From positions 1-47,233 of the forward strand of contig JAFUQX010000030.1 in NCBI GenBank assembly GCA_017472145.1: 47,233 nucleotides of DNA, given 5' to 3'. The DNA is from Ruminococcus sp. GTDB taxonomy: Bacteria > Bacillota > Clostridia > Oscillospirales > Ruminococcaceae. The position numbers and the translations under genes are program-made. Positions 19,558 to 47,233 of the stretch are shown here, one piece after another. The notes under the pieces are model-generated. The model was not told the DNA's origin. It saw nothing but the letters and a program-made list of their open reading frames with translations, and searched no databases. The first letter of the stretch is position 1; every line of letters starts with the position of its first letter.

Positions 19558-20097
19558 TTACAGCTCGATCTGCTTGCCGAGAAATTGTGAGGCGGCCTGA
19601 ATGAGCGTTCGCTGACTTTCATTGAGAGGAGTGCCGTTTCCGTTTTCCAGAAAGGCCACCGCCCCGGTAACATCGCCAGCGGAAATAATGGGCAGGCAGG
19701 CCATTGCACCTTTATCTACACCCTCGGCTGGAATCAGCGTACTTTCCCGTCCGTCAGAAAAATACTGTCTGCGGTTTTCCATCAGCTCCTCCAGCTCCGG
19801 AGAAACTCTCCGGGCATTCCATTCCTTCTTGGCCGCACCGGATATTGAAATCACATGATCCCGGTCAAATACCGCTACCGGACAGCCGGACAGCTTGTGC
19901 ATGATATCTGCAACCTGGGCTGCGTTTTCACTGATCTCTCCGATGGGAGAATATTTTTTGAAAATGACTTCACCGTCATTGCTTGTATAGATTTCAAGGG
20001 GGTCTCCTTCACGAATCCGCATGGTTCTGCGGATCTCCTTTGGGATCACGACACGACCGAGATCATCGATCCGTCTTACGATTCCTGTGGCTTTCAT
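19558..20097 (-). CDS. spoVT: Stage V sporulation regulator SpoVT
   Basis: Transcription factor of 179 aa with an N-terminal AbrB-type swapped-hairpin DNA-binding domain (MKATGIVRRIDDLGRVVIPK; residues 1-50) and a C-terminal GAF-like domain (about 57-178). In Bacillus, SpoVT tunes forespore sigma-G genes. Its presence suggests spore-forming ancestry, although homologues persist in non-sporulating Clostridia. The start lies behind GGAGG on the minus strand. It is divergent from the tiny-ORF array and convergent with serS. Confidence 0.95.
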   Translation of the reverse strand: MKATGIVRRIDDLGRVVIPKEIRRTMRIREGDPLEIYTSNDGEVIFKKYSPIGEISENAAQVADIMHKLSGCPVAVFDRDHVISISGAAKKEWNARRVSPELEELMENRRQYFSDGRESTLIPAEGVDKGAMACLPIISAGDVTGAVAFLENGNGTPLNESQRTLIQAASQFLGKQIEL

Positions 20098-20131
20098 ATC
20101 CTTTACCTCCGTAATTTTCGGTTTGTGGAAA

Positions 20132-20160
20132 TAGTATTTGCAGGCTTTGTCGGTTTATGC
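20132..20160 (-). promoter_or_regulatory. Possible sigma-F/sigma-G promoter of spoVT
   Basis: On the minus strand GCATA (20156-20160) and AATACTA (20132-20138) are 17 bases apart, close to the forespore consensus GHATR-N17/18-CATNHTA. In Bacillus spoVT is sigma-G controlled. Weak evidence taken alone. Confidence 0.4.
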
Positions 20161-20224
20161 GCTGAGTGAAAAGAAGTTTTTTTAAAAAACAGACTGGACG
20201 CTTTGCGATTCCGCACTTTTTGTC

Positions 20225-20253
20225 ATGACAACCGTGCTGTGCTGTGCTATAAT
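20225..20253 (+). promoter_or_regulatory. Promoter 1 of the tiny-ORF array
   Basis: ATGACA (20225-20230), 17-base spacer, TATAAT (20248-20253), then AAGAA. CCGCACTTT lies just upstream at 20211-20219, as at promoter 2. Confidence 0.7.
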
Positions 20254-20307
20254 AAGAACGTACCAAGGGAAACAAAGAGAGCGGCACTGAATTTTGGAGG
20301 TGATTGT

Positions 20308-20358
20308 ATGTTGATGCTGAATCCCGAGTCCCGCTTCGATGTTACGAAGCGCTTCTGA
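20308..20358 (+). CDS. Tiny ORF 1 (16 aa)
   Basis: Candidate peptide MLMLNPESRFDVTKRF behind TTGGAGGTGAT (SD about 8 bases from ATG). Not recognised. Net charge about +1. It is the first of nine ORFs in one direction and lies between promoters 1 and 2. The evidence for translation is the near-complete SD, which extends into the GGTGAT part of the anti-SD complement. It is not similar to ORFs 2-9. Confidence 0.5.
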   Translation: MLMLNPESRFDVTKRF

Positions 20359-20382
20359 TGCTTCTGTATCGGTCCGCACTTT

Positions 20383-20411
20383 CTGACAGGACTTCCATGG
20401 CGTCCTATGAT
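20383..20411 (+). promoter_or_regulatory. Promoter 2 of the tiny-ORF array
   Basis: CTGACA (20383-20388), 17-base spacer, TATGAT (20406-20411), followed by agaataagaag. CCGCACTTT is repeated just upstream (20374-20382), as at promoter 1, which suggests a shared control element. Confidence 0.65.
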
Positions 20412-20440
20412 AGAATAAGAAGTACAAGGAGGTGATTCGT

Positions 20441-20500
20441 ATGGGTGAGCTGATTCTGGAGACTGTTCTGGATATCGTGAAGGCTCTGCTGGAGGATTGA
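20441..20500 (+). CDS. Tiny ORF 2 (19 aa), MGEL...LLED family
   Basis: Peptide MGELILETVLDIVKALLED behind AAGGAGGTGAT, an 11-base match to the 16S rRNA tail. It would form an amphipathic acidic helix (net about -4). It shares the first four and last four residues with ORFs 6 and 7. Size and amphipathicity recall staphylococcal delta-toxin and phenol-soluble modulins, but no homology is claimed. It follows promoter 2 closely. Confidence 0.65.
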   Translation: MGELILETVLDIVKALLED

Positions 20501-20535
20501 CGCAGTTATGAAAATCAGGGGAAGGAGGAGAGTTT

Positions 20536-20616
20536 ATGATACATTCTGTCATTGCACCGAAGCCAGGGACAGAGTCCTGGCTGGAAAAGCTGCTGAAAGA
20601 TCTCATTGTCTACTGA
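20536..20616 (+). CDS. Tiny ORF 3 (26 aa)
   Basis: Starts MIHSVIAPKPGTE and ends with an amphipathic helix SWLEKLLKDLIVY. The SD is GAAGGAGGAGA. It lies 35 bases after ORF 2 and is probably co-transcribed. Net charge near zero. Not recognised; a membrane-active or signalling peptide is possible but unproven. Confidence 0.6.
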   Translation: MIHSVIAPKPGTESWLEKLLKDLIVY

Positions 20617-20672
20617 GATGCGGCTTTTGCAAAGCACTGTGATAAAATAAGAACCACAGGGAGGTGATTTGT

Positions 20673-20741
20673 ATGAGCACCCGTTTCATACTCCGCAGTG
20701 CGGTGACTGCTGTTCGGATCGCAGCCCGTTTTCTCCGATGA
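20673..20741 (+). CDS. Tiny ORF 4 (22 aa), cationic
   Basis: Begins MSTRFILRSAVTAV and ends RIAARFLR. Five arginines spaced every three to seven residues and no acidic residue give an amphipathic helix of about +5, resembling a cationic antimicrobial or toxin-like peptide. The SD is GGGAGGTGAT. A weaker -10-like sequence, gataaaataagaa (20641-20653), lies just upstream. Confidence 0.6.
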   Translation: MSTRFILRSAVTAVRIAARFLR

Positions 20742-20775
20742 ATACATGTCGCATATCATTTGAGGAGGTGATATT

Positions 20776-20865
20776 ATGACTGCAAAGACACTTATTGGTA
20801 TGGCCAGTGCGGTGGTTACATGCGCAGGTGCGATTGCCGACATTCTGCTCGACAGCAAGCGCTGA
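20776..20865 (+). CDS. Tiny ORF 5 (29 aa), hydrophobic
   Basis: Begins MTAKTLIGMASAVVTCAGA and ends IADILLDSKR. The central stretch is hydrophobic and could span or insert in a membrane; it has one cysteine and a basic end. The SD is GAGGAGGTGAT. It is the longest of the array and lies 34 bases after ORF 4. Confidence 0.6.
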   Translation: MTAKTLIGMASAVVTCAGAIADILLDSKR

Positions 20866-20904
20866 GAGTGAGACCGGACTATAATATAAGGAGGTGATTT
20901 TAAT

Positions 20905-20955
20905 ATGGGAGAGCTGCTTGGACTGGCTATTCTGATGTCCCTGCTGGAGGACTGA
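20905..20955 (+). CDS. Tiny ORF 6 (16 aa), MGEL...LLED family
   Basis: Peptide MGELLGLAILMSLLED, acidic ends around a hydrophobic core, behind AAGGAGGTGAT. It differs from ORF 7 by one residue (Ser12 for Ala). Both nucleotide differences inside the two ORFs leave the frame intact: one is silent and one is a Ser/Ala change, consistent with a translated product. Confidence 0.7.
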   Translation: MGELLGLAILMSLLED

Positions 20956-20995
20956 AAGCTTCATTGTGTACGCCATATAAGGAGGTGATTTTAAT

Positions 20996-21046
20996 ATGGG
21001 AGAGCTGCTTGGATTGGCTATTCTGATGGCCCTGCTGGAGGACTGA
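20996..21046 (+). CDS. Tiny ORF 7 (16 aa), MGEL...LLED family
   Basis: Peptide MGELLGLAILMALLED from the second 91-bp unit, with the same SD and spacing as ORF 6. With ORF 2 it defines a three-member family: MGEL, a hydrophobic core, LLED. Confidence 0.7.
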   Translation: MGELLGLAILMALLED

Positions 21047-21084
21047 AAGCTTCATTGTGTACGCCATATAAGGAGGTGATCTGC

Positions 21085-21144
21085 ATGGATCCTCGTACCG
21101 CTTTTTATATCGCAGATGCGATTCTTGCTCTTACCCGCTGCTGA
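21085..21144 (+). CDS. Tiny ORF 8 (19 aa)
   Basis: Peptide MDPRTAFYIADAILALTRC behind AAGGAGGTGAT. The leader is copied from the 91-bp unit but the coding part is unrelated. It ends in a cysteine. Function not recognised. Confidence 0.55.
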   Translation: MDPRTAFYIADAILALTRC

Positions 21145-21199
21145 TGGGTATTTCACCCGTTCCGCTAATATATACTTTAAATATCAGGAGGTGCTGCAT

Positions 21200-21280
21200 A
21201 TGTTCAGAATGGACGTGATCATCAGATATGGAAAAAAATCCGGCCGGCCGGCATTCTATCAGCCTTTTTCATATCCTTGA
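21200..21280 (+). CDS. Tiny ORF 9 (26 aa), basic and aromatic
   Basis: Begins MFRMDVIIRYGKKSG and ends RPAFYQPFSYP. Net charge about +4, with a proline- and tyrosine-rich end unlike the helical ORFs. The SD is AGGAGGTGC. The last 22 bases overlap the 3' end of the convergent WYL gene, so the two transcripts would be complementary. Confidence 0.45.
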   Translation: MFRMDVIIRYGKKSGRPAFYQPFSYP

Positions 21281-22254
21281 GGTACAGAAAAATGCTGATA
21301 TTGTTTCAGATGTGTCTGTACTTCTTCTATGAGTTCTGCCGGTGACAGAACCTCGGCCGAAGGCCCGAAGGAGAGTATGTGACGAAATATTTCCTGCTTG
21401 TCAAATTCATAGTACCGGAGCTGCATCAACCAGTCTCCATTTTCCAGCGGCTTCATCGTGGTATCATACATCGAAAATAGCAGTGCAGCCCGTTCGGGTG
21501 CATTGCGCCTGTTTCGGATTCGCAGGCAGATCGGCTCAGACGCTTGTCTGGAGCTGAGAATCTTATGGATGCTTTCCACTGGCTGTACAGTATCGGTTTC
21601 CGCTGCCTGAACATTGCGCATCCGGCGGAGATTGGCCTTTACTGCACGTCCCTCTGCCGGATTCCACATAGAAATGCGAAAGACCTGATCTGCTGCAGAA
21701 AACTCGATTCGCAAAGGCCGGGAGAGCATTCCCTTAAGCAGCCCCTGCCGTGTCTGATTGTCATATCGGATATAGCGGTTCTCACGGATGGCTTTCTGCA
21801 CCAGCCGGAACTTCTGTATGAACTCTGGTGTAATATCGTCCCCTTTTCGCATAGGACACACGGAAATATAGCGGCTCATGTCCGGCAGCTTTTCTTTCTC
21901 CAGTGCATGGCGAAGCGATTCTATTTCCGACTGATCAAGAAACAGGGGTATGTATTTGCTGTTGAGTATCATTAGAAGATAGAGCTTCTCTCCCCGGGAT
22001 ATCGGGAATTGGATTTTTCCATTCCGTACAGGCTGTACCCTTGTGTTGTCAGAAAAATCAAACAGCAGGCCTGTGTCGGAACGGATATGCTCAAGAAAAT
22101 CAGCCCCGAAGGCAGCGTGTTTTTCTACGCCGGCGGCCTCCTGAATCTCTGCATATATCTCACTCTTTGAAAGTGTTTTACCATTGCTCAGTCTGTTGAG
22201 TACTGCGGAAAGCGCCAGAACATAACGATTCTTGTATTCATTGATCAATTCCAT
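21259..22254 (-). CDS. WYL-domain-like transcriptional regulator, distal gene
   Basis: 331-aa protein with a divergent WYL-like core. An N-terminal helical winged-HTH-like region (about 1-75) precedes IRENRYIRYDNQTRQG and FRISMWNPAEGRAVKANLRRMRNV. A WCX-like C-terminal domain ends with a helix. WYL proteins sense ligands, perhaps nucleic acid, and often control defence loci. The start at 22254 follows GTGGAGGGA on the minus strand; an in-frame ATG at 22287 lacks such a site. It overlaps the upstream WYL gene by 17 bases and is co-transcribed with it. Confidence 0.7.
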   Translation of the reverse strand: MELINEYKNRYVLALSAVLNRLSNGKTLSKSEIYAEIQEAAGVEKHAAFGADFLEHIRSDTGLLFDFSDNTRVQPVRNGKIQFPISRGEKLYLLMILNSKYIPLFLDQSEIESLRHALEKEKLPDMSRYISVCPMRKGDDITPEFIQKFRLVQKAIRENRYIRYDNQTRQGLLKGMLSRPLRIEFSAADQVFRISMWNPAEGRAVKANLRRMRNVQAAETDTVQPVESIHKILSSRQASEPICLRIRNRRNAPERAALLFSMYDTTMKPLENGDWLMQLRYYEFDKQEIFRHILSFGPSAEVLSPAELIEEVQTHLKQYQHFSVPQGYEKG

Positions 22255-23521
22255 ATATTTCCCTCCACTCTCTGATATCCTGTTCAAAATCGGCCAGCAT
22301 ATCCTCCGGGGCTTTCAGAATACGGATTTCTCCAAGATTCCGGAACAGCCAGGGCTTCAGCTCTACAAAATGATTTACAGAAATGCGTATGTGCATCCAA
22401 TCAGGCTCTGCTTCTTCATACTGGGCATTCGAGAAATATTGCAGCACATGAGGATACAGCTCCTTGCGGACAGCAAGGACAACCTCTGTTAGCTTTTCCG
22501 GACGACAGAATACACCGGTAAAGCTATGGGAAAGTGCGGTTTCGTACAGCTGCTGTATTTCCTCAGCATCTGCCGGTTTTTCTGGTTTTCCATTCATTTC
22601 CGGTGTACGGATCTTGTCGATCCGGTAAAGGACAGGTTCACGGCGGTTCTCATAAAGATTGAGACCAAACAGATACTGTCGGCCTGTTTCTTCATTTATT
22701 ATGATTCTACAGGGATAGATATCCTTGATCGTGTGCTCCTTTTTCCCTTTATAAAGAAACGAAACTATTTCCTGGGCATCCATGGCCTGAAGCAGTGTCC
22801 ATAGTACACCATCATCCAGAATCTGTCCCAGATGATAATGTTTGAACAGAAACTGACTCTCATAGGCCGGGGCGGAATTCTCATTCAGCCGGCGCTTTAT
22901 CGAATCCAGCAGATAATGGCCGCAGGTTGCAGGCGGAATCACATTGCAATGGAAATCTGCAGCCGCTGCAAGGGAGAGCAGTATGGATTCCGGAAGCGCT
23001 TTGAGCGGATCGGATGAACGTGTGTAGAATTTTTTATTTCCTTTTCGCTCACATTGCAGAAAGCCATGCTCTGTAAGATGATCTATACAACGCTCAATGG
23101 TGCGATCGGATGGGACCTTATCCTGGGTAAATTCATTCTTGATGTCCGCTGCTGTAAAGCATACCTCCTCTTGGCTGAACATCTGCATGATAGCCAGTGA
23201 TGTGAAAAGATGCTTTGCAGTGAAGCTCTTGATAGAATAAAGCTCAAGCAGGGCCTTGTGGGGTTCTGTGAACATGTCCTTCCGAAAGGCTAAGGCTTTC
23301 TGTCCGCTGCTTAGCTTCACCTCTGTCAGATATTTTCCCATGACGGATTTCAGATTTGCTGTAAGCTGGTAGTAGCGGCTTTTGCTTATACCTTGTTTTT
23401 TGTAATCCTCCTGCGTATAGCAGCCGTAGAAAAATATAATGCGCAGAAATTCCAGAATTTCTGTGAAGTTCTTGATGAAATCACGCTGCTTCTTATTTCT
23501 TTCCATGTCATTTCTTTTCAT
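22238..23521 (-). CDS. WYL-domain transcriptional regulator, promoter-proximal gene
   Basis: 427-aa regulator. N-terminal helices include ISKSRYYQLTANLKS. A winged HTH is suggested by CFTAADIKNEF and SDRTIERCIDHLTEHGFLQCERKGNKKFYT (about 120-175). The WYL core reads AQEIVSFLYKGKKEHTI and then RQYLFGLNLYENRREPVLYR, ending RIDKI. A WCX-like C-terminal region follows. It is divergent from the helicase operon across a 217-base intergenic region with a promoter on each strand, so it is the likely regulator of that operon and of itself. Confidence 0.78.
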   Translation of the reverse strand: MKRNDMERNKKQRDFIKNFTEILEFLRIIFFYGCYTQEDYKKQGISKSRYYQLTANLKSVMGKYLTEVKLSSGQKALAFRKDMFTEPHKALLELYSIKSFTAKHLFTSLAIMQMFSQEEVCFTAADIKNEFTQDKVPSDRTIERCIDHLTEHGFLQCERKGNKKFYTRSSDPLKALPESILLSLAAAADFHCNVIPPATCGHYLLDSIKRRLNENSAPAYESQFLFKHYHLGQILDDGVLWTLLQAMDAQEIVSFLYKGKKEHTIKDIYPCRIIINEETGRQYLFGLNLYENRREPVLYRIDKIRTPEMNGKPEKPADAEEIQQLYETALSHSFTGVFCRPEKLTEVVLAVRKELYPHVLQYFSNAQYEEAEPDWMHIRISVNHFVELKPWLFRNLGEIRILKAPEDMLADFEQDIREWREIYGIDQ

Positions 23522-23687: not shown

Positions 23688-23738
23688 AGTAACAGAATGA
23701 AAAATATCGGATTCTGTAATATAAGAAAGGAGAAGTAT

Positions 23739-26700
23739 ATGAAAAAAGTACAATATGGAATTGTGATAGGAACTCCCAAAAATTCAGTAAATTCAGTTTC
23801 TGTCTGCACAAATGACGGTAAGGAATTGAAATATAATAAATCAGTCAAAGATATTCATTATGGGGATCGTGTGCGAGTCCGATTGAATCAGGATGGACAG
23901 CTTACAGGTATTCAGAAGCAGAAGGATGAAACTGTTCGGGGTCGTGTGATCTGGGTATATCCAGGGGGCGGCGGCCTTGTGCAGACGAAAAGCGGAGAAA
24001 CGCTCTCTTTTACAAGAAACCATATCACAGGTTCATGCACGGATCCTGTGTTGGGACAGAATGTGCGGTGTACTGCGTCTCCTGCACCGCGGGGGGTAAA
24101 AAAACCACTCGGTACAGCGAAAAATCTGAAGCTTTATCCGATTCCAGAGCTGACGGCTGAGTGGCGCAGAAAGGGTGGTCAGGCCCTCAGAAACCGTTTA
24201 GGAGTGGGAGTGAACTCCATTGAAAATGCGCTTAAAGTACTGCGGGAAACAGGGCTTGATCCGGATAAATTTGGGTATACGGATCGATATATGTTTCTTG
24301 AAGCATTTACCGATGTGCTTCGGGTACAGCACGAAAAAAATACAGTGCAGATCTTTGATGCTGCAGAAACAGAGGACTGCTATAGAAGTGTCCTTGCAAT
24401 TGCCAATCGGATCGGCTATGATCATCTCACAGCCTTACAGGAACGGGCTGTCCGAGATCCTGCCTTCTGGTCACAGAATCGTGTGCTGGTGATGGGAACG
24501 ACCTCCGCCGGAAAAACGATGATTCCCATGTTCAAATTTATACATGAGCGTGAAACCACAGAGAAAAGGCTGAAAATGCTGATTGCAGTTCCCTATCGTG
24601 CACTGGCCTGGCAGATGTATCAGAGCTTTTGTGAAAAGTTTGGGGACGATGGACTGGATATCGCCTGCTCTACCAGCGAAAGAACCGACCGGGATGACGA
24701 TATCCTCCATGGGGATGTTGATATTGCCATTATCATTTATGAAAAGCTGTTCCTTTTTCTTTCCGAGAACAGCTGGCTTTTGAATCGTTATGATTACCTG
24801 ACGCTGGATGAGATCGGACTTGTACAGGAAAAGGAACGGGGCGTCAAGACCGAGCTGGTGAATCTCCACGCTTTTTTACGGCCGGATATGCGGATCACCA
24901 TGCTGGCGACTCCCTATTTCAATTGGGAGTCCTATGTCGATCAGTATCAGCTCTATCCTATTAAATGCTTCAGCCGGCCGGTACCGATCCGTGAGTATTT
25001 TCTGATGCCCTGCAAGGAGTATAATGAAACCTCAAGGTGTGAAAATATAAAATATCACCTTTATGACAGTCAGGAGCAGGAGCTTTCACTCGGACACTGT
25101 AAAGGCTTTAAGGATACGTTGTGCTATCTGTGCAGGAATGAGCGTGAGCTTGGCCATAAGGTGATTGCCTTCTGCTTTTCAAAGCGGACTGCACGCAGAC
25201 GGGTTCGGGATATTTACGAATATATGAAGAATGCTCTGTCCTGGACAGAGCCAACTTCGGAGGAACGTGCGGAATTTAAGGAGAGATTCTTCCTGGAATA
25301 TAACCTGACGCCAGAGGAGCTTAAGGGCGTTTTTGATCAGGATATTGAATTTGATGCACTCATGAAGGGCATTACGTTCCATTGTGCGTCCCTGCCTGAG
25401 GCTATGAGAATTGCTATCGAATCAGAGTTTCTGGATACACCACGCGTTATTGAAGGCGGGGTCCGGTTGGTGGTGGCTACTGAAACCCTCGCCTTCGGCC
25501 TGAACAGCAACGTGGATACGATCATCATGACGCATATGAAAAAGGCTCAGATGGGTGGGGAGGAGGAGCCCCTGGAATATAACCTTTACCAGAACTGCAT
25601 CGGACGTGCAGGACGGCTGGGCTATCTGAACTTTGGGACAAGCTATACCTTCATTCCTATCGATATGATTCCGCAAAGCGACTGCAGAGATTCTCCTGTA
25701 AAGCGTTATAGCAGTAAATCTGCACTGGATGTAGGGGAGGTATACAGTCAGCTCGGCGGTTTGCTCAGTGAACCCCAGTGGGAAAATCTGGCTTTCTGTG
25801 TCCTCAATCTGTTCAGGGAAGGGCGTGCTATGACACAAAAGGGCATCTGCGACAGAATTACGCAGGTTCCCGTTACCACTCCTCTGGATAAGGAGAGACT
25901 TCAGGAAGCAATAGATAAGGCTGTGCAGTTTCTGTGTGCGGAAAAGCTTCTGGAGGTGGATGAGAGTGATATTCTGATGGAAGATGAGCAGGACAGCTAC
26001 GTGCTGACTCGGAGGGGATGCAGACTCAGAAGCTATACCATCTCTACGGATAGCTATCGTATCATTCAGGAGGCCATCGACCTGCTGTTTGCGGAGAGCG
26101 GCTGCTGTGTGCTGGATTATTTCCTGAAGCTGTCTCAGTGTGCTGAAATCGGAGATTTCTGCAAAAATATGATGGTTCGTCCGCCGGAGAATGGTGAAGT
26201 GAATGGGAATCAGGAGGAGAATCAGCCGCTGGAGGACCTGATCGCCTTTGTGAAGCTTGCAGAGGGGACGCTTCCCGAGATCCGGAAAAATGGCTATATC
26301 TCAGAGAACCTGTATCATTCCTTTGTTGAGTCGGAGACCTATACGGCTGCCAAGGCCTATGCAGAGGAGGCAGAGCTGCTGGATGAGGAGACGTTCTGTT
26401 CTAAGAGGATCGAGCTTCCCAGTGAGGGCTATGATGAGCTGACGCAATTCAGGGTCGCACTGTATTCTACACTCTGGATCTCTGGTTATAGTCTTGGCCT
26501 TATAAATGATATCGCTGGATGGACCAATGGAAAGGTGGATAATATCAAATCCAAATTCGGCGAAAAGATGAGCTATGTAACCGATGCCGCTGCCGCATCG
26601 GCCAGCCTTAACGGCTTGGATACGGAGCGATCGGAGCTGCTTTTGCAGATCTCTTTTGCTCTCTTTTATGGGATCCGTCTGGAATGGATCCGCAGGGAGG

Positions 26701-26888
26701 AATTGACCAAGCTGAAGCTGGGACCGGAGAAGGCCAGAAGCTACCATATTGCCTCTATCTGGTCCGGACGGGAGGCCTATCTGAAAAAGAACGGAACGCC
26801 GCAGCAGTGGCGGGACTTTGAAGAGGAAGATAAATTCCTCGATGACGAAGTAAAACAGATTTTACAAAAGGAAAGGATGGAAGGATAA
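23739..26888 (+). CDS. Ski2-like helicase with N-terminal cold-shock-like region
   Basis: 1049-aa superfamily 2 helicase. Residues 1-125 look like two OB or cold-shock-type units; the second has GRVIWVYPGGGGLVQTKSGE and a later PAPRGVKK. This predicts RNA or single-strand binding. Walker A is GTTSAGKT (253-260), motif II is DEIG (357-360) and motif VI is IGRAGRLG (near 622). A long helical C-terminus is unassigned. The motif LQ-x2-A-x2-DP-x-FW before Walker A is shared with the next gene, so the two are paralogues. The start at 23739 follows AAAGGAGA. Its stop overlaps the next start by one base (TAATG). Role unknown; defence or RNA processing is inferred. Confidence 0.82.
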   Translation: MKKVQYGIVIGTPKNSVNSVSVCTNDGKELKYNKSVKDIHYGDRVRVRLNQDGQLTGIQKQKDETVRGRVIWVYPGGGGLVQTKSGETLSFTRNHITGSCTDPVLGQNVRCTASPAPRGVKKPLGTAKNLKLYPIPELTAEWRRKGGQALRNRLGVGVNSIENALKVLRETGLDPDKFGYTDRYMFLEAFTDVLRVQHEKNTVQIFDAAETEDCYRSVLAIANRIGYDHLTALQERAVRDPAFWSQNRVLVMGTTSAGKTMIPMFKFIHERETTEKRLKMLIAVPYRALAWQMYQSFCEKFGDDGLDIACSTSERTDRDDDILHGDVDIAIIIYEKLFLFLSENSWLLNRYDYLTLDEIGLVQEKERGVKTELVNLHAFLRPDMRITMLATPYFNWESYVDQYQLYPIKCFSRPVPIREYFLMPCKEYNETSRCENIKYHLYDSQEQELSLGHCKGFKDTLCYLCRNERELGHKVIAFCFSKRTARRRVRDIYEYMKNALSWTEPTSEERAEFKERFFLEYNLTPEELKGVFDQDIEFDALMKGITFHCASLPEAMRIAIESEFLDTPRVIEGGVRLVVATETLAFGLNSNVDTIIMTHMKKAQMGGEEEPLEYNLYQNCIGRAGRLGYLNFGTSYTFIPIDMIPQSDCRDSPVKRYSSKSALDVGEVYSQLGGLLSEPQWENLAFCVLNLFREGRAMTQKGICDRITQVPVTTPLDKERLQEAIDKAVQFLCAEKLLEVDESDILMEDEQDSYVLTRRGCRLRSYTISTDSYRIIQEAIDLLFAESGCCVLDYFLKLSQCAEIGDFCKNMMVRPPENGEVNGNQEENQPLEDLIAFVKLAEGTLPEIRKNGYISENLYHSFVESETYTAAKAYAEEAELLDEETFCSKRIELPSEGYDELTQFRVALYSTLWISGYSLGLINDIAGWTNGKVDNIKSKFGEKMSYVTDAAAASASLNGLDTERSELLLQISFALFYGIRLEWIRREELTKLKLGPEKARSYHIASIWSGREAYLKKNGTPQQWRDFEEEDKFLDDEVKQILQKERMEG

Positions 26889-29800
26889 TGGAGCAGAATA
26901 ACGTATTTTCAAGATTTCAAGAGCTGAGTAAAGGTGTACTGGATTCAGCGGCAGGGGAAGCAATGCAGCCTTTCTTCGAGAAGGTTGGTGAGGAACTGAA
27001 GTCGTTTGAGAATTTCACTGAGCTGCAGCAGGCGGCCCTGAAAGATCCGGACTTCTGGAAGGCAGAAAAGAATATTCTCCTTCAGGGGGCGACCTCTGCC
27101 GGTAAAACCCTGATTGCGGAATGCAGTATGGCCAATCAGATCTATGCACGGAAGAAAAACGTGATCTATCTGGTTCCGCTTAAGGCGCTTACCACTGAAA
27201 AGGAAAGGACATTTAAAGCGCATTTTGAAGGGAAAAAAATCTATTCGTCCTCTGCGGACTATCAGGATCATGACTATGATCTGATTCACGGCAACTATGA
27301 TATCGGCATTCTTGTATATGAGAAATTCTTTGCGCTGATGGCGCAGAATGAGTCGAGCTTCCTGAAGCGCTGCGGACTGGTCGTTGTGGACGAAATGCAT
27401 ATGCTCAGTGACAAGGAGCGTGGTCCGAAGCTGGAATTTGCGATTGAAATGGTGCGCATTCGGTCAAGAAACTCCCTTGCACTCCTGGGTCTCACCACTA
27501 CGGAAAGCGATATGTCTGCGGTGGAAAAGTGGCTTGATACGGAGAGAACAAAGAAAATTATCAATCCCAGCCGGCCGGTTGAGATCGAAGAACGGTTTCT
27601 CTATTGTGACCCGGATTCGGAGGAGCCTGATCTGGAATGCTGGCAGAATGGCGAGCAGCTCCCTGAGCAGGCGGATTTTGTTCTCTACAAGGACATTCCA
27701 AAGAATGATAAGGATAAGCGGTTTTATCCGCTTTTGCAGGTGCTGAAAAATCACAGCGGAGCTGAGGAAAAAATAATCATCTTCTGTAACAGTAAGATGA
27801 GATGTGAGTCACTTATGACCGATATCTGTGATTCCGGTGTGCTGGAAAAGCGAAGCGGAATGGCGTTTACGGATTTTCCGGATCTGATGACCAGTGAAAT
27901 GGAGGAGAAGGACTACAACAAATTGCGCAGGGCTCTTCTGGACTATGGCGTTGTATATCATAATTCCAGGCTCGGCATCAGCATGCGTACCTTTATTGAG
28001 GATACCTTTAAGAAAAGGGATGGCGGTATTCGCATTATCATTTCCACAGAGACCCTGACGATGGGTGTCAATATGCCTGCCGATATCATGGTGCTCTATG
28101 ACCATGAGGTTTATCGTGAGGATGATGAGCGGGATGTAAATGCGCGTCCGCTTGACTATCAGGAATATAAAAATGCGGTGGGACGGGCCGGACGCTATGG
28201 CATTACACGGGGAAACCGTGGTCTGAGCTATGTTCTGAATGCAAATCCAGAGGATATGAAAAAATGCGTCATCACTTATGCGCATAATCAAGAAGAAAAG
28301 AAGATCCTCTCCGGTCTGCGTATCACAGCAGAAGATAGAGAGAAGTACGGAGATAAGGAGGCCTTTGCCAGGGCTGCCGCTTCCTATTACATGAGTGTCC
28401 TGAGTCATACGCTCTTTACAAGAGAAGAACTGAAACAGCTGGTCCAGGGAGGACTTGAACGCAGCGTGGCCGGACTTTCTGAAAGTGAGACTCTTACAGA
28501 TGAAGTGATCGATGTACTTTGCGGGAAAAAGGAAGGTTCGCTGCCTCTTATTGAGGAAAGTGACGATGACGAAGAGGAATTTGATGAAAGCATTAGATAT
28601 GTGGTTAAAAGCTTGGGCAAGGCGTTTTCTCCCTTTGCACTAGGAATTGGTACGTATTTTCGTATGTATAGGCGTTTTCTGGAGAAGGATCAGAAGGATC
28701 CGGTGAAGCCTAAGAAAAATAATCACCACATGCCTGTTTATTCAGAGGAGCATGCATATGATATCAGTCCATGGCCCGAAGAGGGACTGAAGAAAAAAGG
28801 CAAGGAGAAGAACTATTTCTTTGATGTCATGTTCGAAATCTGCCTTATGCCTGAGATCAAGAATAAGCATCAGTATGTAAGATATGATAAGGACAAAGAC
28901 AAAGAAAATGAAATCAAGAAGGCTATTCTGAGATTTTTCCAGAAGCACAATGATCCTTCGCTGTACTGGGACAACTCCGTTTTGCTCAAATACTGCAAGG
29001 ATGATCAGGATGAGGTGCAGGAGAACGTTGTAGAGGCGCTTTATCGCGTGATCGTGCTCTACTACTGGGTACTTGGGAAAAATGTGTGCGAAATCCGTGA
29101 AAAGATGGGACTTCCGGATGACCCAAAATATTATATCTACACCAGTGAGGTACAGAGCCTCGGTGAGCAGTGTGCTCACCAGCTGGAGGCTGTTTCAAAG
29201 GCCTTTGAAAGCAGGCTGAGTTCTGAGAGCACTCCTCTCAGGTATATGTTCTATAGGCTGTCTATTTGTGTGAAATATGGTATGACCGGTGATTCTGCAC
29301 GCATTGCATCCAGGCATATCCGCGGACTGACACGCTCGAAAATACTGCACATGGAACGGGAAAGCAAAAAACTCGGCTATGGCAGTGCTCGGGAATTTCT
29401 GTTTTGTGTCAAGCCGGAAAAAACCAGGGCCTTTCTGACGGCGGAGCAGGATAAAGAGCTGCGCAGGCGTCTGACAGATCCGCTGCAATATGAATTGGAC
29501 AGACTGATGGATATGCTGGAAAAGGATGCTATGGTCGACGACAGCTTTCTTAGGAAGTTTGAAGCCTGTTCCAATTCACGGGATGCCTTTTTTGAGCTTC
29601 TGGAGAGTATGAAGCTGGATCCTGAAAAGGGATCCTCCGGTTCACTTTGTCTCAGGAAGCATGGACTGTGGATCTATATCTGCACAAGTGATAAGAATAT
29701 GGAAAGCAGCAGTGATGTCAAGCGTGAGACGGGATATGAGACGCCTGAGCCCGGTACGGCGGCTTTGATCCTCTATAAAAAGGATACCCTCTCTGATAAG

Positions 29801-30922
29801 GACGAGGACAAAACGTGTATCCTGAAGGATGACATGGATAAAATGATCTTGTACAGTGTCTATGAGGCTGGAGGCCGTCGTAAGGCTGGCCCTTATCTGG
29901 CTGCGCTCCTTCGCCGATATGCGGAGATCGGAAGAAGTCTTTTGCAAAGCGGTCGTATGAAAGAGGAGCTGGATCGGATATCCGAAAGTCTGATAAAAAA
30001 ATCTCTGGCTGAAGCGGAAGCAGAAGCAAGGCTGGCGGCGGACAAGACCGGCGATGCTGCGCACATCTACAATTACAGCAACAATTATTATATTAATGTG
30101 CCGGATGCAAAAGCTGTACAGGTGGCCGGTGCGATCCAGAATAATACGCAGATTCAGATTGCACAGTACATTGCAGATTATAAGCCTTTCCTGGAACGTC
30201 GTGCAAAGGAATGGAAGAAAGTACTGAAAGAGGCTCGGGATCAGCAGAGCGATGCAGGTCTGGAATCAGATGAGGGGAGCGATGCCTTTTTTGCGGATGT
30301 GTCTGAGCGGATCACACTTCCGGCTGAAGTCACTGAGGAAACGCTGGAGCAGGCAGCGAGAGAGATTCTCAAGGGTTATGGCAAAAGCTATGATGAAATA
30401 AAAGCAAAGACCGAGGACGTTGACGGGCTTCCCGCTATGCTGTGGCAGGCGCTTTATGTTGAAAGGGCGATTCAGCAGCTGAAGCTGATGGAGGATTATT
30501 CTCCGGCTCTGACCATGTACAACAAGGCGATTGAATATTGTCTGAGGAAAAGGCTTCGTCCTGTTTTTCTGCGGGATTGTCCGAAGCACAAGATGAATAA
30601 GATAAAGGATAAGAAAAAACTTGACCTTGAAGATGCTCCTGAGAACGATTTTACGATCGGAGCTATGGCCGCAATTTTGAGGAAACAGCATTGTGCGGAA
30701 CCAAAACCTGAAACGCTGACGAGAGAGGTCGATTCGGATGAACGTAAGTATTGGAAAGAACTGAATGAACAGATTGGGGAAGCTACGAAGCTTCGTAATG
30801 ACAGCAGTCATCCTGGAGAAGAAATGCCTGTAGAGTCTGCGGAGAAGATGCGTAAATATGCATTTGACATCATAAGCACAACAGCGGAGCTTCCGCCCAA
30901 AGTACGGGATGCGGCCAGATAA
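26888..30922 (+). CDS. Ski2-like helicase with C-terminal HEPN-like domain
   Basis: 1344-aa helicase coupled to the previous gene. Walker A is GATSAGKT (67-74), motif II is DEMH (168-171), and motif VI is NAVGRAGRYG (glycine 432). Motifs HNSRLG and IIISTETLTMGVNMPADIM belong to the second RecA-like lobe. A long middle region (about 500-1150) has acidic stretches and an Asn/Tyr-rich strand, IYNYSNNYYINV. The last 150 residues look HEPN-like: helix YNKAIEYCLRKRL, then KLRNDSSHPGEE with R1303 and H1308 fitting the RNxxxH RNase signature. An RNA-cleaving effector is inferred. A terminator follows. Confidence 0.82.
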   Translation: MEQNNVFSRFQELSKGVLDSAAGEAMQPFFEKVGEELKSFENFTELQQAALKDPDFWKAEKNILLQGATSAGKTLIAECSMANQIYARKKNVIYLVPLKALTTEKERTFKAHFEGKKIYSSSADYQDHDYDLIHGNYDIGILVYEKFFALMAQNESSFLKRCGLVVVDEMHMLSDKERGPKLEFAIEMVRIRSRNSLALLGLTTTESDMSAVEKWLDTERTKKIINPSRPVEIEERFLYCDPDSEEPDLECWQNGEQLPEQADFVLYKDIPKNDKDKRFYPLLQVLKNHSGAEEKIIIFCNSKMRCESLMTDICDSGVLEKRSGMAFTDFPDLMTSEMEEKDYNKLRRALLDYGVVYHNSRLGISMRTFIEDTFKKRDGGIRIIISTETLTMGVNMPADIMVLYDHEVYREDDERDVNARPLDYQEYKNAVGRAGRYGITRGNRGLSYVLNANPEDMKKCVITYAHNQEEKKILSGLRITAEDREKYGDKEAFARAAASYYMSVLSHTLFTREELKQLVQGGLERSVAGLSESETLTDEVIDVLCGKKEGSLPLIEESDDDEEEFDESIRYVVKSLGKAFSPFALGIGTYFRMYRRFLEKDQKDPVKPKKNNHHMPVYSEEHAYDISPWPEEGLKKKGKEKNYFFDVMFEICLMPEIKNKHQYVRYDKDKDKENEIKKAILRFFQKHNDPSLYWDNSVLLKYCKDDQDEVQENVVEALYRVIVLYYWVLGKNVCEIREKMGLPDDPKYYIYTSEVQSLGEQCAHQLEAVSKAFESRLSSESTPLRYMFYRLSICVKYGMTGDSARIASRHIRGLTRSKILHMERESKKLGYGSAREFLFCVKPEKTRAFLTAEQDKELRRRLTDPLQYELDRLMDMLEKDAMVDDSFLRKFEACSNSRDAFFELLESMKLDPEKGSSGSLCLRKHGLWIYICTSDKNMESSSDVKRETGYETPEPGTAALILYKKDTLSDKDEDKTCILKDDMDKMILYSVYEAGGRRKAGPYLAALLRRYAEIGRSLLQSGRMKEELDRISESLIKKSLAEAEAEARLAADKTGDAAHIYNYSNNYYINVPDAKAVQVAGAIQNNTQIQIAQYIADYKPFLERRAKEWKKVLKEARDQQSDAGLESDEGSDAFFADVSERITLPAEVTEETLEQAAREILKGYGKSYDEIKAKTEDVDGLPAMLWQALYVERAIQQLKLMEDYSPALTMYNKAIEYCLRKRLRPVFLRDCPKHKMNKIKDKKKLDLEDAPENDFTIGAMAAILRKQHCAEPKPETLTREVDSDERKYWKELNEQIGEATKLRNDSSHPGEEMPVESAEKMRKYAFDIISTTAELPPKVRDAAR

Positions 30923-30982: not shown

Positions 30983-30988
30983 CAGACT

Positions 30989-31177
30989 GTCGAAAAACCT
31001 TTGAAAGCCTCCCCTTAATAAGGGGAGGTGGCACGCCGAAGGCGTGACGGAGGGGATTGTAAGGTATGAGAAAACTTGTAATTTTGCGTACTTTTTCAAT
31101 CCCCTCAGTCGTCACTTCGTGCCGACAGCTCCCCTTGCTAAGGGGAGCCTTGTGCGGAAAATCTGACTTTTTCGACA
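30989..31177. mobile_element. MITE-like element between duplicated terminator hairpins
   Basis: 189-bp unit with terminal inverted repeats (tgtcgaaaaa / tttttcgaca), then agcctccccttaataagggg on the left and a matching palindrome on the right. No coding capacity. Related copies lie at 3731, 44045 and 46934 to the window end. Its internal palindromes (cacgccgaaggcgtg, gtcacttcgtgccgac) match the other copies closely. Confidence 0.85.
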
Positions 31178-34213: not shown

Positions 34214-34889
34214 GCGCACAGAAAGGAATTTTTTTCGGTCCAGCAGTTTTTTGTAAAAAAAATGCTGGCGTAGGGTCTGGGACGAGGAGTCCCAGATGGC
34301 TGCGGAGCAGCCATGACGAAGCAAGCTGAATATTGAGCCGACTTCAGATCGAACAATCAAGCGCATTCCGCATTATAAAAAGAACCCTTCCCATAATGTC
34401 TGTTACAATAGGAAGGCTGCGCAGTCGTACAGGAAAAGTCAGCATGCGGAATGAGCGTACATAGCAAGAGCGGAACGAAGTGACAAATCTTGCGGCCCGT
34501 TCGAGCCTTGTTTCTCTAAGAGAATATACAAAGAAGTCCGCAGCTCAGTGATGGATGTCGCTTTAAGCTGCGGACTTTATCTTTTTCTCTCAGATAAACA
34601 AAACTCGTACAGGCCGCAAGAATTATTCGCTTCGCTCACTCTCTTGCTATGCTCCAAATTCCGCATCTGATCTTTTCTCCGCACTGTAACAAGGCTTTCT
34701 GAATAAACTTTCATTGAAACGTATGCCTTTTTAGAATGCGGAATTTGGGTTTTGCTCTACATTTGGAAAATGCGTCATTTTAGCTGGTGTGTTTCGCTCT
34801 CTGCGGAGAGCGACCAGGGACGCTGTCCCTGGACCCTGGCAGCATTTTCGAGAAATTGCTGCACCAAAAAGCTTTTCTTTCTGTGCGCT
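34214..34889. mobile_element. Non-autonomous inverted-repeat element, copy A (about 680 bp)
   Basis: The ends form an imperfect inverted repeat of about 60 bases. The left end gcgcacagaaaggaa...ccagcag matches the complement of the right end. Each end holds a ccagca/tgctgg-type hairpin. Internal nested palindromes include cattccgcat/atgcggaatg and aagtccgcagct/agctgcggactt. No credible gene. It begins 10 bases after the dockerin stop. Its left-end hairpin probably serves as that gene's terminator. Confidence 0.85.
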
Positions 34890-35025: not shown

Positions 35026-36969
35026 ATGTGTAAAAAATATTATATCACCACCCCGATCTATTACCCGTCCGGCAATCCCCATATCGGACATTGCTATACC
35101 ACGGTAGCCTGCGACTCCATCGCCCGTTACCGCCGTATGCAGGGCTATGATGTCATGTTCCTCACCGGTACGGACGAGCATGGCCTGAAAATCGAACAGA
35201 AGGCCGCCGAAAAGGGCGTGTCTCCCAAGGCCTATGTTGACGAGATCGTTGCCATCTTCAAAAACCTCTGGCAGTATATGAATATCAGCTATGACCGCTA
35301 TATCCGTACCACCGATGACTATCATATCGAAACCGTGCAGAAGATCTTCAAGGAGCTGTACGACAAGGGCTATATCTACAAGGGTGAATATACCGGCAAA
35401 TACTGCACCCCCTGCGAAAGCTTCTGGACAGACTCCCAGTTGGTGGACGGCAAGTGCCCCGAATGCGGCCGTGATGTTGTAGAAGCCAAGGAGGAGGCCT
35501 ACTTCTTCAAGATGTCTCCCTTTGCAGACCGCATTGAAAAGCTCCTGACCGAGACCGACTACCTCCAGCCGAAGACCCGTGCAACAGAGCTGGTCAACAA
35601 TTTCATCAAGCCCGGCCTGGAAGACCTCTGTGTGTCCAGAACCTCCTTCAAATGGGGCATTCCGGTTACCTTTGACGAAAAGCATGTGGTCTATGTATGG
35701 ATCGATGCGCTTTCCAACTATATCTCCGCTCTGGGCTTCTATAATGAGGCCTATCAGGATTATGAGCGCTTCTGGCCGGCGGATGTGCATATGGTAGCCA
35801 AGGATATCATGCGCTTCCACGCCATTATCTGGCCGGCTATGCTCATGGCTCTGGATCAGCCGCTTCCCAAGCACCTGGCCGTGCATGGCTGGATCACCTT
35901 CAACGGACAGAAGATGAGCAAGTCCCTGGGCAATGTAGTAGACCCGCTGGTGCTGGGTGAGCGCTATGGTGCGGACTCCATCCGTTATCACATTCTGCGT
36001 GAGATGGCACTGGGTGCGGACAGCTCCTTCTCCAATGAGATCATGATCAACCGGATCAACTCCGATCTGGCCAATGGTCTGGGCAATCTGGTATCCCGTA
36101 CGGTTGCGATGGTGGATAAGTATTTCGGCGGCACGCTGCCGATGGAGCGTCAGGCCGGCGAATTTGATGATGATCTGATCGCAATGGCCAGCGGTCTGCG
36201 AGATGCAGTGGATGGCTATATGGATCAGACTCAGCTGAATCTGGCGCTGGCTGAGATTTTCAAGGTGGTATCCCGTGCGAACAAGTATATTGACGAGACG
36301 GCGCCGTGGGTACTGGCGAAGGATGAGGCCAACAAGGTTCGTCTGGCAACGGTGCTGTACAATCTGCTGGAGACCATTCGTATTGTATCGACGCTGCTGT
36401 CGGCCTTCATGCCGAGCACGATGCCGGTGGTATGGGAGCAGATCGGTGCGCTGGAGGAAGACCGGACGTATGAGAATGCGGCAGTATTTGGCGTACTGAG
36501 AAAGAATGTGACCATTCAGAAGGGAGCGATCATCTTCCCGAGAATTGATGTAGAGAAGGAGATCGAGGCGCTGAACGAGATCATCAGCAGCAGTCTGCCG
36601 AAGGAGCCGGAGGAGGAGACCATTGAGGTACAGCCGGCGGCGGAGGAGATCGGGTTTGATGATTTTCTGAAGGTTGATCTGAGAGTGGCGAAGGTGACGG
36701 CCTGTGAGAAGGTGAAGAAGTCGAAGAAGCTGCTGTGTTTGCAGCTGGATGATGGCATGGGAGGTCGTCAGGTTGTGTCTGGCATTGCTCAGTGGTATAC
36801 GCCGGAGGAACTGATTGGGAAGAAGGTTATGGTTGTTGTGAATCTGAAGCCGGCGAAGCTGTGTGGAGTAGAGAGCAATGGTATGATTTGTGCAGCGGAC
36901 GCACCGGATGGCAGTGCGAAGGTAGTATTCCCGGATCAGAGTCTGCCGTGCGGTTCTAAGATTCGCTGA
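35026..36969 (+). CDS. metG: Methionyl-tRNA synthetase
   Basis: Class I synthetase of 647 aa charging initiator and elongator tRNA-Met. HIGH motif at residues 19-22 (PSGNPHIGH). The zinc-knuckle cysteines are C127, C130, C144 and C147. KMSKS lies at 296-300. An anticodon-binding helical domain follows. The last 105 residues form a Trbp111/EMAP II-type tRNA-binding domain (FDDFLKVDLRVAKVTACEKVKKSKKLL). The start follows AAGGAGG. It sits between two copies of the 700-bp repeat; the right copy begins at its stop codon. Confidence 0.97.
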   Translation: MCKKYYITTPIYYPSGNPHIGHCYTTVACDSIARYRRMQGYDVMFLTGTDEHGLKIEQKAAEKGVSPKAYVDEIVAIFKNLWQYMNISYDRYIRTTDDYHIETVQKIFKELYDKGYIYKGEYTGKYCTPCESFWTDSQLVDGKCPECGRDVVEAKEEAYFFKMSPFADRIEKLLTETDYLQPKTRATELVNNFIKPGLEDLCVSRTSFKWGIPVTFDEKHVVYVWIDALSNYISALGFYNEAYQDYERFWPADVHMVAKDIMRFHAIIWPAMLMALDQPLPKHLAVHGWITFNGQKMSKSLGNVVDPLVLGERYGADSIRYHILREMALGADSSFSNEIMINRINSDLANGLGNLVSRTVAMVDKYFGGTLPMERQAGEFDDDLIAMASGLRDAVDGYMDQTQLNLALAEIFKVVSRANKYIDETAPWVLAKDEANKVRLATVLYNLLETIRIVSTLLSAFMPSTMPVVWEQIGALEEDRTYENAAVFGVLRKNVTIQKGAIIFPRIDVEKEIEALNEIISSSLPKEPEEETIEVQPAAEEIGFDDFLKVDLRVAKVTACEKVKKSKKLLCLQLDDGMGGRQVVSGIAQWYTPEELIGKKVMVVVNLKPAKLCGVESNGMICAADAPDGSAKVVFPDQSLPCGSKIR

Positions 36970-37710
36970 AGCAGCGCATAAAAAGGAATTTTTTTCGGTC
37001 CAGCAGTTTTTTGCAAAAAAATGCTGGCGTAGGGTCTGGGACGAGGAGTCCCAGATGGCTGCGGAGCAGCCATGACGAAGCAAGCTGAATATTGAGCCGA
37101 CTTCAGGCCGAACAATCAAGCGCATTCCGCATTATAAAAAGGACTCTCCCTATACTGTCTGTTACAATAGGAAGTCTGCGCAGTCGTACAGGAAAAGTCA
37201 GCATGCGGAATGCGTGCACATAGCAAGAGCGTCAGCGCAGTGACAAATCTTGCGGCTCGTTCGAGCCTTGTTTCTCTAAGAGAATATACAAAAAAGTCCG
37301 CAGCTCAGTGATGGATCTCACTTTGAGCTGCGGACTTTATCTTTATTTCGCTCGGATAAAAAAACTCGTACAGGCCGCAAGAATTATTCGCTTCGCTCAC
37401 TCTCTTGCTATGCTCCAAATTCCGCATCTGATCTTTTCTCCATGCTGTAACAAGGCCTTCTGGATAAACTTTCATTGAAACGTATGCCTTTTTAGAATGC
37501 GGAATTTGGGTTTTGCTCTGTATTTGGAAAATGCGTCATTTTAGCTGGGGTGTTTCGCCGTCAGCGGACGGCGACCAGGGGCTTTGCCCCTGGACCCCAG
37601 CAGCATTTTCGAGAAATTGCTGCACCAACGGTGCCGTCCCCTTTGTCCCTTCGGGACATTTCCCCACCCCGTGGGGAATCACCAAAAAGCTTTTCTTTCT
37701 GTGCGCTGCT
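36970..37710. mobile_element. Non-autonomous inverted-repeat element, copy B (about 740 bp)
   Basis: Largely identical to copy A along its whole length, and in the same orientation. It carries an extra block of about 55 bases (37628-37682), a reverse-oriented palindromic module, inside its right terminal repeat. It fills exactly the gap between the metG stop (36967-36969) and the stop of the convergent LRR gene (37711-37713). It must therefore provide the transcription stop for both. Confidence 0.87.
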
Positions 37711-44040: not shown

Positions 44041-44044
44041 GGCT

Positions 44045-44288
44045 TGTCGGAAAAGTCGGATTTTCCGCATAAGGCTCCCCTTAGTAAGGGGTGATCCCCG
44101 CAGTGCGGGGAAATGTCCGAAGGACAAAGGGGACCGGCTCGTGGAGCCTGTCGGCACGAAGTGACGACTGAGGGGATTGAAAAAGTACGCAAAATCGTAA
44201 GTTTTCTCATGCCTTACAATCCCCTCCGTCACGCCTTCGGCGTGCCACCTCCCCTTATTAAGGGGAGGCTTTCAAAGTCTTTTTGACA
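44045..44288. mobile_element. MITE-like element with nested palindromic module
   Basis: 244-bp relative of the element at 30989, with tgtcggaaaa / tttttgaca ends. Compared with that copy it has a block of about 57 bases (44090-44147, ccccgcagtgcgggg...ggaccgg) inserted in one arm. It lies between two hairpins (44015-44040 and 44294-44321). An almost identical stretch of at least 200 bases recurs from 47033. Confidence 0.85.
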
Positions 44289-44293
44289 GACGA

Positions 44294-46933: not shown

Positions 46934-47233
46934 CGCCCCTTAGCAAGGGCTATGTCATTAACTTGAGCAGGTATAATAAGCTGTTGTGCCGAAAAATCCT
47001 TTGAAAGCCTCCCCTTAGTAAGGGGTGCCCAGCTTGTCGAAAAAGTCAGATTTTCCGCATAAGGCTCCCCTTAGTAAGGGGTGATCCCCGCAGTGCGGGG
47101 AAATGTCCGAAGGACAAAGGGGACCGGCTCGTGGAGCCTGTCGGCACGAAGTGACGACTGAGGGGATGCAAAAAGCACGCAAAATCGTAAGTTTTCTCAT
47201 GCCTTACAATCCCCTCCGTCACGCCTTCGGCGT
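46934..47233. repeat. Nested MITE-like repeats running off the window
   Basis: 46934-47031 is a broken unit with the same tgtcattaactt...gcaggtat end as the element at 3731. At about 47033 a second unit begins (cttgtcgaaaaagtcagatttt). It matches 44041-44240 nearly base for base, including the nested module, and is cut by the window end. No gene is seen between 46747 and 47233. Confidence 0.85.

Follow-up and report, generated by a model that had tools for sequence, protein, structure and literature searches.

Nine tandem micro-ORFs with strong Shine-Dalgarno starts in a Ruminococcus genome: a candidate array of leaderless micropeptides

Nine plus-strand open reading frames (ORFs) of 16-29 codons each are packed into ~1 kb (20308-21280) of a Ruminococcus sp. 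contig stretch of 47,233 nt, referred to here as the window. The array is real and unusual, and its ORFs are very probably coding. What the peptides do is a matter for more cautious argument. The explanation we prefer, with less than even confidence and by analogy with known systems, is a duplicated, lineage-specific operon of nine leaderless micropeptides that would be membrane-active as a cocktail. Genes shorter than ~30 codons are usually missed by annotation. If the preferred reading is true, a Clostridia genome with a leaderless, lineage-specific cocktail would offer a new place to seek membrane-active or competition peptides, and the array would be a clear case of how such tiny genes multiply.

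Layout of the array and its translation starts

The array sits between a divergent SpoVT-type gene (19558-20097, minus strand) and a convergent WYL/WCX gene (21259-22287, minus strand). The start of the SpoVT-type gene, whose product is SpoVT_C/AbrB-like (Pfam SpoVT_C), is 211 nt from the start of ORF1. The divergent intergenic region between them (20098-20307) holds a promoter-like site, ATGACA-17-TATAAT at 20225-20253, inside one copy of a 49-nt repeat (20210-20258); the ~60 nt adjoining spoVT is matched in six congeners and the remainder is unmatched. ORF1 (20308-20358) has 16 codons, a TGA stop, the SD sequence GGAGGTGAT and a synonymous log-odds of +3.2 in frame. The second copy of the 49-nt repeat (20373-20421, plus strand) carries CTGACA-17-TATGAT and precedes ORF2 (20441-20500; 19 codons; SD AAGGAGGTGAT), which encodes an acidic amphipathic peptide of an MGEL...LLED family. 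ORF3 (20536-20616; 26 codons; SD AAGGAGG) and ORF4 (20673-20741; 22 codons; SD GGAGGTGAT), with an amphipathic product of charge +5, are followed by ORF5 (20776-20865; 29 codons; SD AGGAGGTGAT), whose product has a hydrophobic middle. ORF6 (20905-20955) and ORF7 (20996-21046) have 16 codons each and the SD AAGGAGGTGAT; the ORF6 product is hydrophobic with acidic ends, and ORF6 lies in the first copy (20884-20974) of a 91-nt duplicated unit of which ORF7 occupies the second. ORF8 (21085-21144; 19 codons; SD AAGGAGGTGATC) and ORF9 (21200-21280; 26 codons; charge +4; SD AGGAGGTG) complete the row, and the 3' ends of ORF9 and the convergent WYL/WCX gene share 22 nt. All nine ORFs are where the first-pass annotation had placed them, and its report of TGA in all nine stops, with stop-to-next-start gaps of 34-82 nt, was reproduced. 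TGA ends 10 of 27 window genes versus 9/9 array ORFs; an all-TGA array has a chance of ~1e-4 if the stops are independent, or 1e-3 with ORFs 2, 6 and 7 counted once.

The start signals are far stronger than expected by chance. ATG is found in 9/9 ORFs, 7-10 nt from the end of GGAGG, and the SDs match AAAGGAGGTGATCC over 7 contiguous bases in ORF3, 8 in ORF9 and 9-12 in the other seven. In 300 dinucleotide shuffles of the region, ORFs with an SD match of at least 7 bases numbered 0.07 on average and 1 at most, versus nine observed. The corresponding values are eight observed versus 0.01 for matches of at least 8 bases, and nine observed versus a mean of 0.34 (maximum 3) for at least 6. The earlier observation of nine ORFs behind strong SDs holds, with matches of 7-12 bases. 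Of the eight plus-strand copies of GGAGGTGA in the window as a whole (47 kb), seven lie in the array and are followed by ATG after 7-10 nt, and the remaining one lacks an ATG at that distance.

Are such starts associated with highly translated genes? The 11-base SD AAGGAGGTGAT followed by ATG occurs at five sites in the 2.5-Mb genome, four of them in the array. In 15 congeners there are 11 such sites in eight genomes, and 11/11 open ORFs of 57-194 codons. With one mismatch allowed, AGGAGGTGA-N7-ATG has 36 sites in the genome versus 11 for a reversed control pattern. We fetched 20 strong-SD regions of the genome, covering 19 of the 34 non-array AGGAGGTGA sites and one site from the AAGGAGGTGAT search. 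Thirteen of the 20 open an ORF of 35-257 codons that ends inside the fetched stretch, and the other seven gave no ORF in a scan that would miss those of >400 codons or extending past the fetched sequence. Five of the 13 ORFs encode S16, L28, L10, S15 and ferredoxin. Since the same SD class precedes ribosomal-protein and ferredoxin genes in this genome, strong translation of the array ORFs is plausible. Predicted RNA folding gives a start-region unpairedness of 0.29-0.51 (mean 0.43) for the array and 0.41-0.78 (mean 0.51) for 13 window genes, so that array starts are on average somewhat less open, with overlapping ranges; ORF5 (0.29) and ORF8 (0.36) are less open than all 13 genes, and the other seven fall within the gene range.

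The fifth AAGGAGGTGAT-ATG site (L160 302-436, G000:C36) begins a 44-codon ORF whose product is hydrophobic in its N-terminal half and matches nothing in Pfam. This ORF lies directly upstream of a 75-codon ORF that, by eye, resembles a helix-turn-helix regulator.

Coding signal and duplication

The codon usage of the nine ORFs was compared with counts from 27 larger window ORFs, hand-chosen as genes. In frame, the summed log-likelihood is +67.7 bits, against -60.0 and -24.3 bits when the other forward frames are read; of the three reverse frames, two score above zero as well (+40.4 and +17.0 bits). Because composition could drive such a score, tests confined to synonymous choice were run. Synonymous usage of the array ORFs has z=7.2 versus composition. 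With the duplicate ORF7 left out, the remaining eight ORFs score 0.236 bits/codon. A set of 330 spurious window ORFs, 15-30 codons long and starting with ATG, scores -0.113 (P=5e-5), and gene segments of the window score 0.219. Taken singly, 9/9 ORFs have a positive synonymous score in frame, and the true frame is the best forward frame for 8/9, the exception being ORF4 (+0.3 in its own frame versus +5.1 and +3.5 in the others). GC content by codon position is 0.606/0.406/0.561 in the array and 0.562/0.378/0.593 in genes, versus 0.414 in the intergenic parts of the array. The first-pass proposal of a micropeptide locus is thus well supported by codon usage, codon-position GC, SD plus ATG in 9/9 ORFs and a coding-like family of paralogues, and there is little doubt in our minds that the nine ORFs are truly coding. 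The measurable coding signal of the set, together with the strong translation starts, makes them good candidates for peptides that are really made.

The array also carries traces of its own history. ORFs 6 and 7 belong to a tandemly duplicated 91-nt unit, whose copies are 98% identical, and together with ORF2 they make up one duplicated family with common ends, MGEL...LLED; ORF2 differs in length from ORFs 6 and 7 by 9 nt, in frame. Over 14 codons aligned at the two ends, ORF2 and ORF7 have five synonymous and three nonsynonymous differences (P=0.03). ORF2 and ORF6 have four of each over the same 14 codons (P=0.13), a synonymous excess that is not significant. Upstream sequences are repeated as well. 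The two copies of the 49-nt repeat, before ORF1 and ORF2, are 76% identical, and the 39-nt stretch ending at the start codon is 85% alike in ORF4 and ORF2. The most widely repeated part of the array is the SD plus spacer. Such repetition of promoter-like and SD stretches along with ORFs suggests that units were copied together with their start signals. On the sequence evidence, the array grew by tandem duplication, recently for ORFs 6 and 7 and earlier for ORF2, their older paralogue; the other peptides would have diverged beyond recognition or been captured separately.

The first-pass annotation named two promoters with 17-base spacers, and both sites were found (20225-20253 and 20383-20411), each inside a copy of the 49-nt repeat. 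That repeated context supports them, but a count of two is at chance level (shuffle mean 1.8). A single polycistronic transcript is plausible, and since promoter-like segments recur ahead of ORFs 1, 2 and 4, transcription may also start at additional internal points.

Possible functions of the peptides

What kind of peptides would the array produce? Their charges range from -4 (ORF2) to +5 (ORF4), with ORF9 at +4. ORF2 is more amphipathic than 99.7% of its own shuffles and ORF4 than 98.8%, and these are the only two above 95%. ORFs 8 and 9 are less clearly amphipathic, and ORFs 1, 3, 6 and 7 rank no higher than the 40th percentile among shuffled versions of themselves. Tested jointly, the peptides of the array are no more amphipathic than shuffles (P=0.22). 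Some of the first-pass descriptions stand: ORF4 is a cationic helix by charge and amphipathicity, and ORF5 is among the most hydrophobic of the set. The grouping of ORFs 2, 6 and 7 as acidic and amphipathic survives for ORF2 but not for ORFs 6 and 7, whose acidic ends flank hydrophobic sequence with amphipathicity not above shuffles. Family scans covered five peptides: ORFs 2-5 and 9 had no family match in NCBIfam, and ORFs 3-5 and 9 had none in Pfam or PHROGs, with ORF5 giving chance-level profile matches (E 0.18 and 0.15).

Three kinds of known system invite comparison. The psm-alpha operon has four genes, and Pmt-type exporter genes are unlinked to psm genes in Staphylococcus. The cited accounts of these phenol-soluble modulins describe several amphipathic helices of 20-25 residues from one operon, with dedicated ABC export (PMC6428751, PMC12607899). 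In size and amphipathicity, ORFs 2 and 4 match this pattern, and the array shares tandem leaderless ORFs, too short for a leader, although its range of 16-29 codons is wider. It differs in having nine genes, in that most of its peptides are not clearly amphipathic and in that the peptides scanned lack a family match. Multi-peptide leaderless bacteriocins, such as aureocin A70, garvicin KS and the cereucins, consist of three or four peptides of ~30 residues in the account consulted (PMC6131525). The known ones carry positive charge, +2 to +5 among the examples consulted, and their loci adjoin conserved partner genes, whereas the array peptides range from -4 to +5 over 16-29 codons, and no immunity, transport or processing gene was recognised among the seven neighbouring proteins scanned. 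This agrees with the first-pass statement that no transporter, immunity or processing gene is adjacent. The array is filed under neither class, since the scanned peptides gave no family match, the set is not uniformly amphipathic and no partner gene was recognised among the neighbours scanned. Finally, the Ldr toxins, a tandem type I family, are described as 35-aa peptides with RNA antitoxins (PMC8309996); they resemble the array in being short and hydrophobic with repeated loci, but a consensus scan of the array for sigma-70-type sites showed no antisense promoter.

By the preferred reading, the nine peptides would be produced abundantly from a single transcript or a few, initiated at about 20255-20420, and would need no leader cleavage. 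They would act at the membrane as a mixture of acidic amphipathic, cationic amphipathic and short hydrophobic members, in a mode like that of the psm-alpha or the aureocin A70/garvicin KS operons, and would be exported by an unlinked transporter or act inside the producer. The first-pass suggestion of modulin-like or antimicrobial peptides draws support from the clear amphipathicity of ORFs 2 and 4, but not from the set as a whole or from any homology found, and stays an analogy. It is possible, if rather doubtful, that the locus is of an undescribed kind: a diversifying array in which promoter-SD-ORF units duplicate and the peptides diverge while the strong SD and TGA are kept, giving a lineage-specific leaderless cocktail.

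There are several alternatives. First, the products could be small membrane or spore-stage peptides that act inside the producer, perhaps controlled via the divergent SpoVT-type regulator. The 211-nt distance between the two starts, the hydrophobicity of ORFs 5-7 (the highest besides ORF2) and the lack of a recognised exporter among the neighbouring proteins scanned are consistent with this, but spoVT is kept in 15/15 congeners and the array is absent beside it in 13/13 with at least 1 kb upstream to scan. In the other two the contig ends sooner, after 84 nt in G010 (the closest, with SpoVT 96%) and after 333 nt in G007. The conserved spoVT leader ends ~60 nt upstream of spoVT. Since congeners keep spoVT without the array, the array is not part of a conserved spoVT module; no sporulation link of the peptides was found, and we regard this explanation as unlikely.

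Second, the peptides could serve as signals, received either by another cell or by the WYL-type regulators next to the array. Their sizes fit, and WYL/WCX and WYL proteins adjoin the array, convergent with it. Against this, the scan of neighbouring proteins revealed no recognisable receptor, protease or exporter, and a signal made up of nine mostly unlike peptides would be odd. Relatives of the nearer WYL/WCX protein were found in 10 of 59 other genomes, all of them distant (best 1.4e-19), and the loci fetched around them have no row of three tiny strong-SD ORFs. Adjacency being the one argument for the WYL link proposed in the first pass, a signalling role is distinctly improbable.

Third, the ORFs could encode type I toxins arranged in tandem, with an antisense RNA to silence each one. 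Short hydrophobic peptides are present (ORFs 5, 6 and 7), and ORF5 ends in charged residues, as do several type I toxins (PMC8309996). The two least open start regions, of ORFs 5 and 8, also point in this direction, but the other seven are within the range of ordinary genes. In addition, a consensus scan for sigma-70-type sites found no promoter on the minus strand, five of the nine peptides have a mean hydrophobicity of <=0.23 and the window has no Rfam match at gathering scores. These results weaken the earlier type I-like suggestion, and we give it a small chance.

Fourth, the region could be a non-coding or cis-regulatory element in which SD repeats bind a ribosome or protein, or the ORFs could be leader peptides for a downstream gene. 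That the SD plus spacer is the most widely repeated part would fit, but the in-frame codon usage and the ATG at 7-10 nt in 9/9 ORFs argue for coding. The next large downstream gene is convergent, leaving no obvious gene for a leader to control. Either version is very unlikely. Lastly, a wrong-frame reading of SD-like repeats in a glycine-rich or other repeat-coding gene, which by eye seems to lie behind tiny-ORF rows in several other SD-array matches, has next to no chance here: it is contradicted by SD copies in different frames (intervals of 132, 232, 104, 126, 91 and 91 nt), no long plus-strand ORF spans them, and four minus-strand ORFs across the region (20182-20427, 20247-20606, 20610-20858 and 20686-20976) have no strong SD and gave no Pfam family match with an E below 0.07, nor, for three of them, any such match in NCBIfam.

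Distribution and genomic surroundings

As far as the searches reach, the array appears to be lineage-specific. A DNA search of the genome itself and 59 relatives returned the array itself, plus the spoVT leader alone in six congeners, and a search of the array region in phages gave no match. A double-SD signature (two perfect SDs 68-98 nt apart) is confined to this genome among 297 family genomes. In 396 family genomes, an SD followed by an MGEL start occurs at three sites other than those of this genome, where the ORFs run to 276, 313 and 10 codons, and the MGEL...LLED pattern has no occurrence in viral contigs. Protein-level genome searches, which covered ORFs 2-5, found no match for ORFs 5 and 3 in 15 congeners, for ORFs 5 and 4 in phages or for ORF3 in plasmids; ORFs 4 and 5 had none among PDB sequences. 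A literature search of titles and abstract openings, thin on subscription journals, found no description of such an array.

Similar rows of tiny ORFs do occur elsewhere. A triple-SD scan of a GTDB collection gave 35 stretches, seven with at least three tiny strong-SD ORFs in a row (L048, L052, L053, L059, L065, L068 and L072), and three SDs were likewise found in 14 viral contigs, two with rows of at least three tiny ORFs (L031 and L032). By eye, L065 and L072 were taken as true rows of tiny genes; the other five and both viral cases look like short exact repeats or overlapping readings. Three tandem tiny strong-SD ORFs are found in Tumebacillus permanentifrigoris (L065 1716-2000) and five in Streptomyces sp. 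H27-H1 (L072 6611-7020). These resemble the array in layout, but copies are near-identical within each row, whereas the array peptides are mostly unlike one another, and the rows look unrelated to the array by eye. A looser viral SD scan gave at least 120 stretches, with tiny-ORF rows in 8 of the 80 matches listed (L191, L210, L212, L227, L249, L250, L254 and L261). These eight were rejected as peptide arrays, their Val/Leu/Glu/Gln-rich products looking by eye like out-of-frame readings of glycine-rich genes. As a separate observation on small peptides, a congener carries a gene for a SCIFF six-cysteine ranthipeptide (L103 4658-4795; Pfam SCIFF 1.4e-23, TIGR03973).

The flanks of the array encode the SpoVT-type, WYL/WCX and WYL proteins and two helicases. 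The helicases (23697-30922) are adjacent, large and of the DEAD/DEAH type, with partial Hel308 similarity, and are divergent from the two WYL-type regulators. For helicase 1, a search of 391 class genomes gave no match at E<=1e-30 other than in its own genome. Helicase 2 has weak matches only, in 9 of 59 relatives (best 7.6e-8), with no match covering 80% in 117 plasmid records and none in viral contigs. PADLOC HamB matches of the helicases are partial and lie over the helicase regions; the pair is possibly an undescribed defence-like locus. Because the helicase pair is also rare, the 20.2-31.2 kb stretch may have acquired both it and the array recently.

Two further repeats lie downstream. 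One, of ~620 nt, has copies at 34248-34867 and 37007-37628 (93-94% identical in three reported pieces) that flank the gene at 35026-36969, which we take to be metG-like. The other is interspersed, at 30987-31128, 44042-44289 and 47032-47233, where two of the copies are in direct and one is in inverted orientation, at 93-98% identity. The last base of the window falls inside a copy of this interspersed repeat, which may explain the end of the contig.
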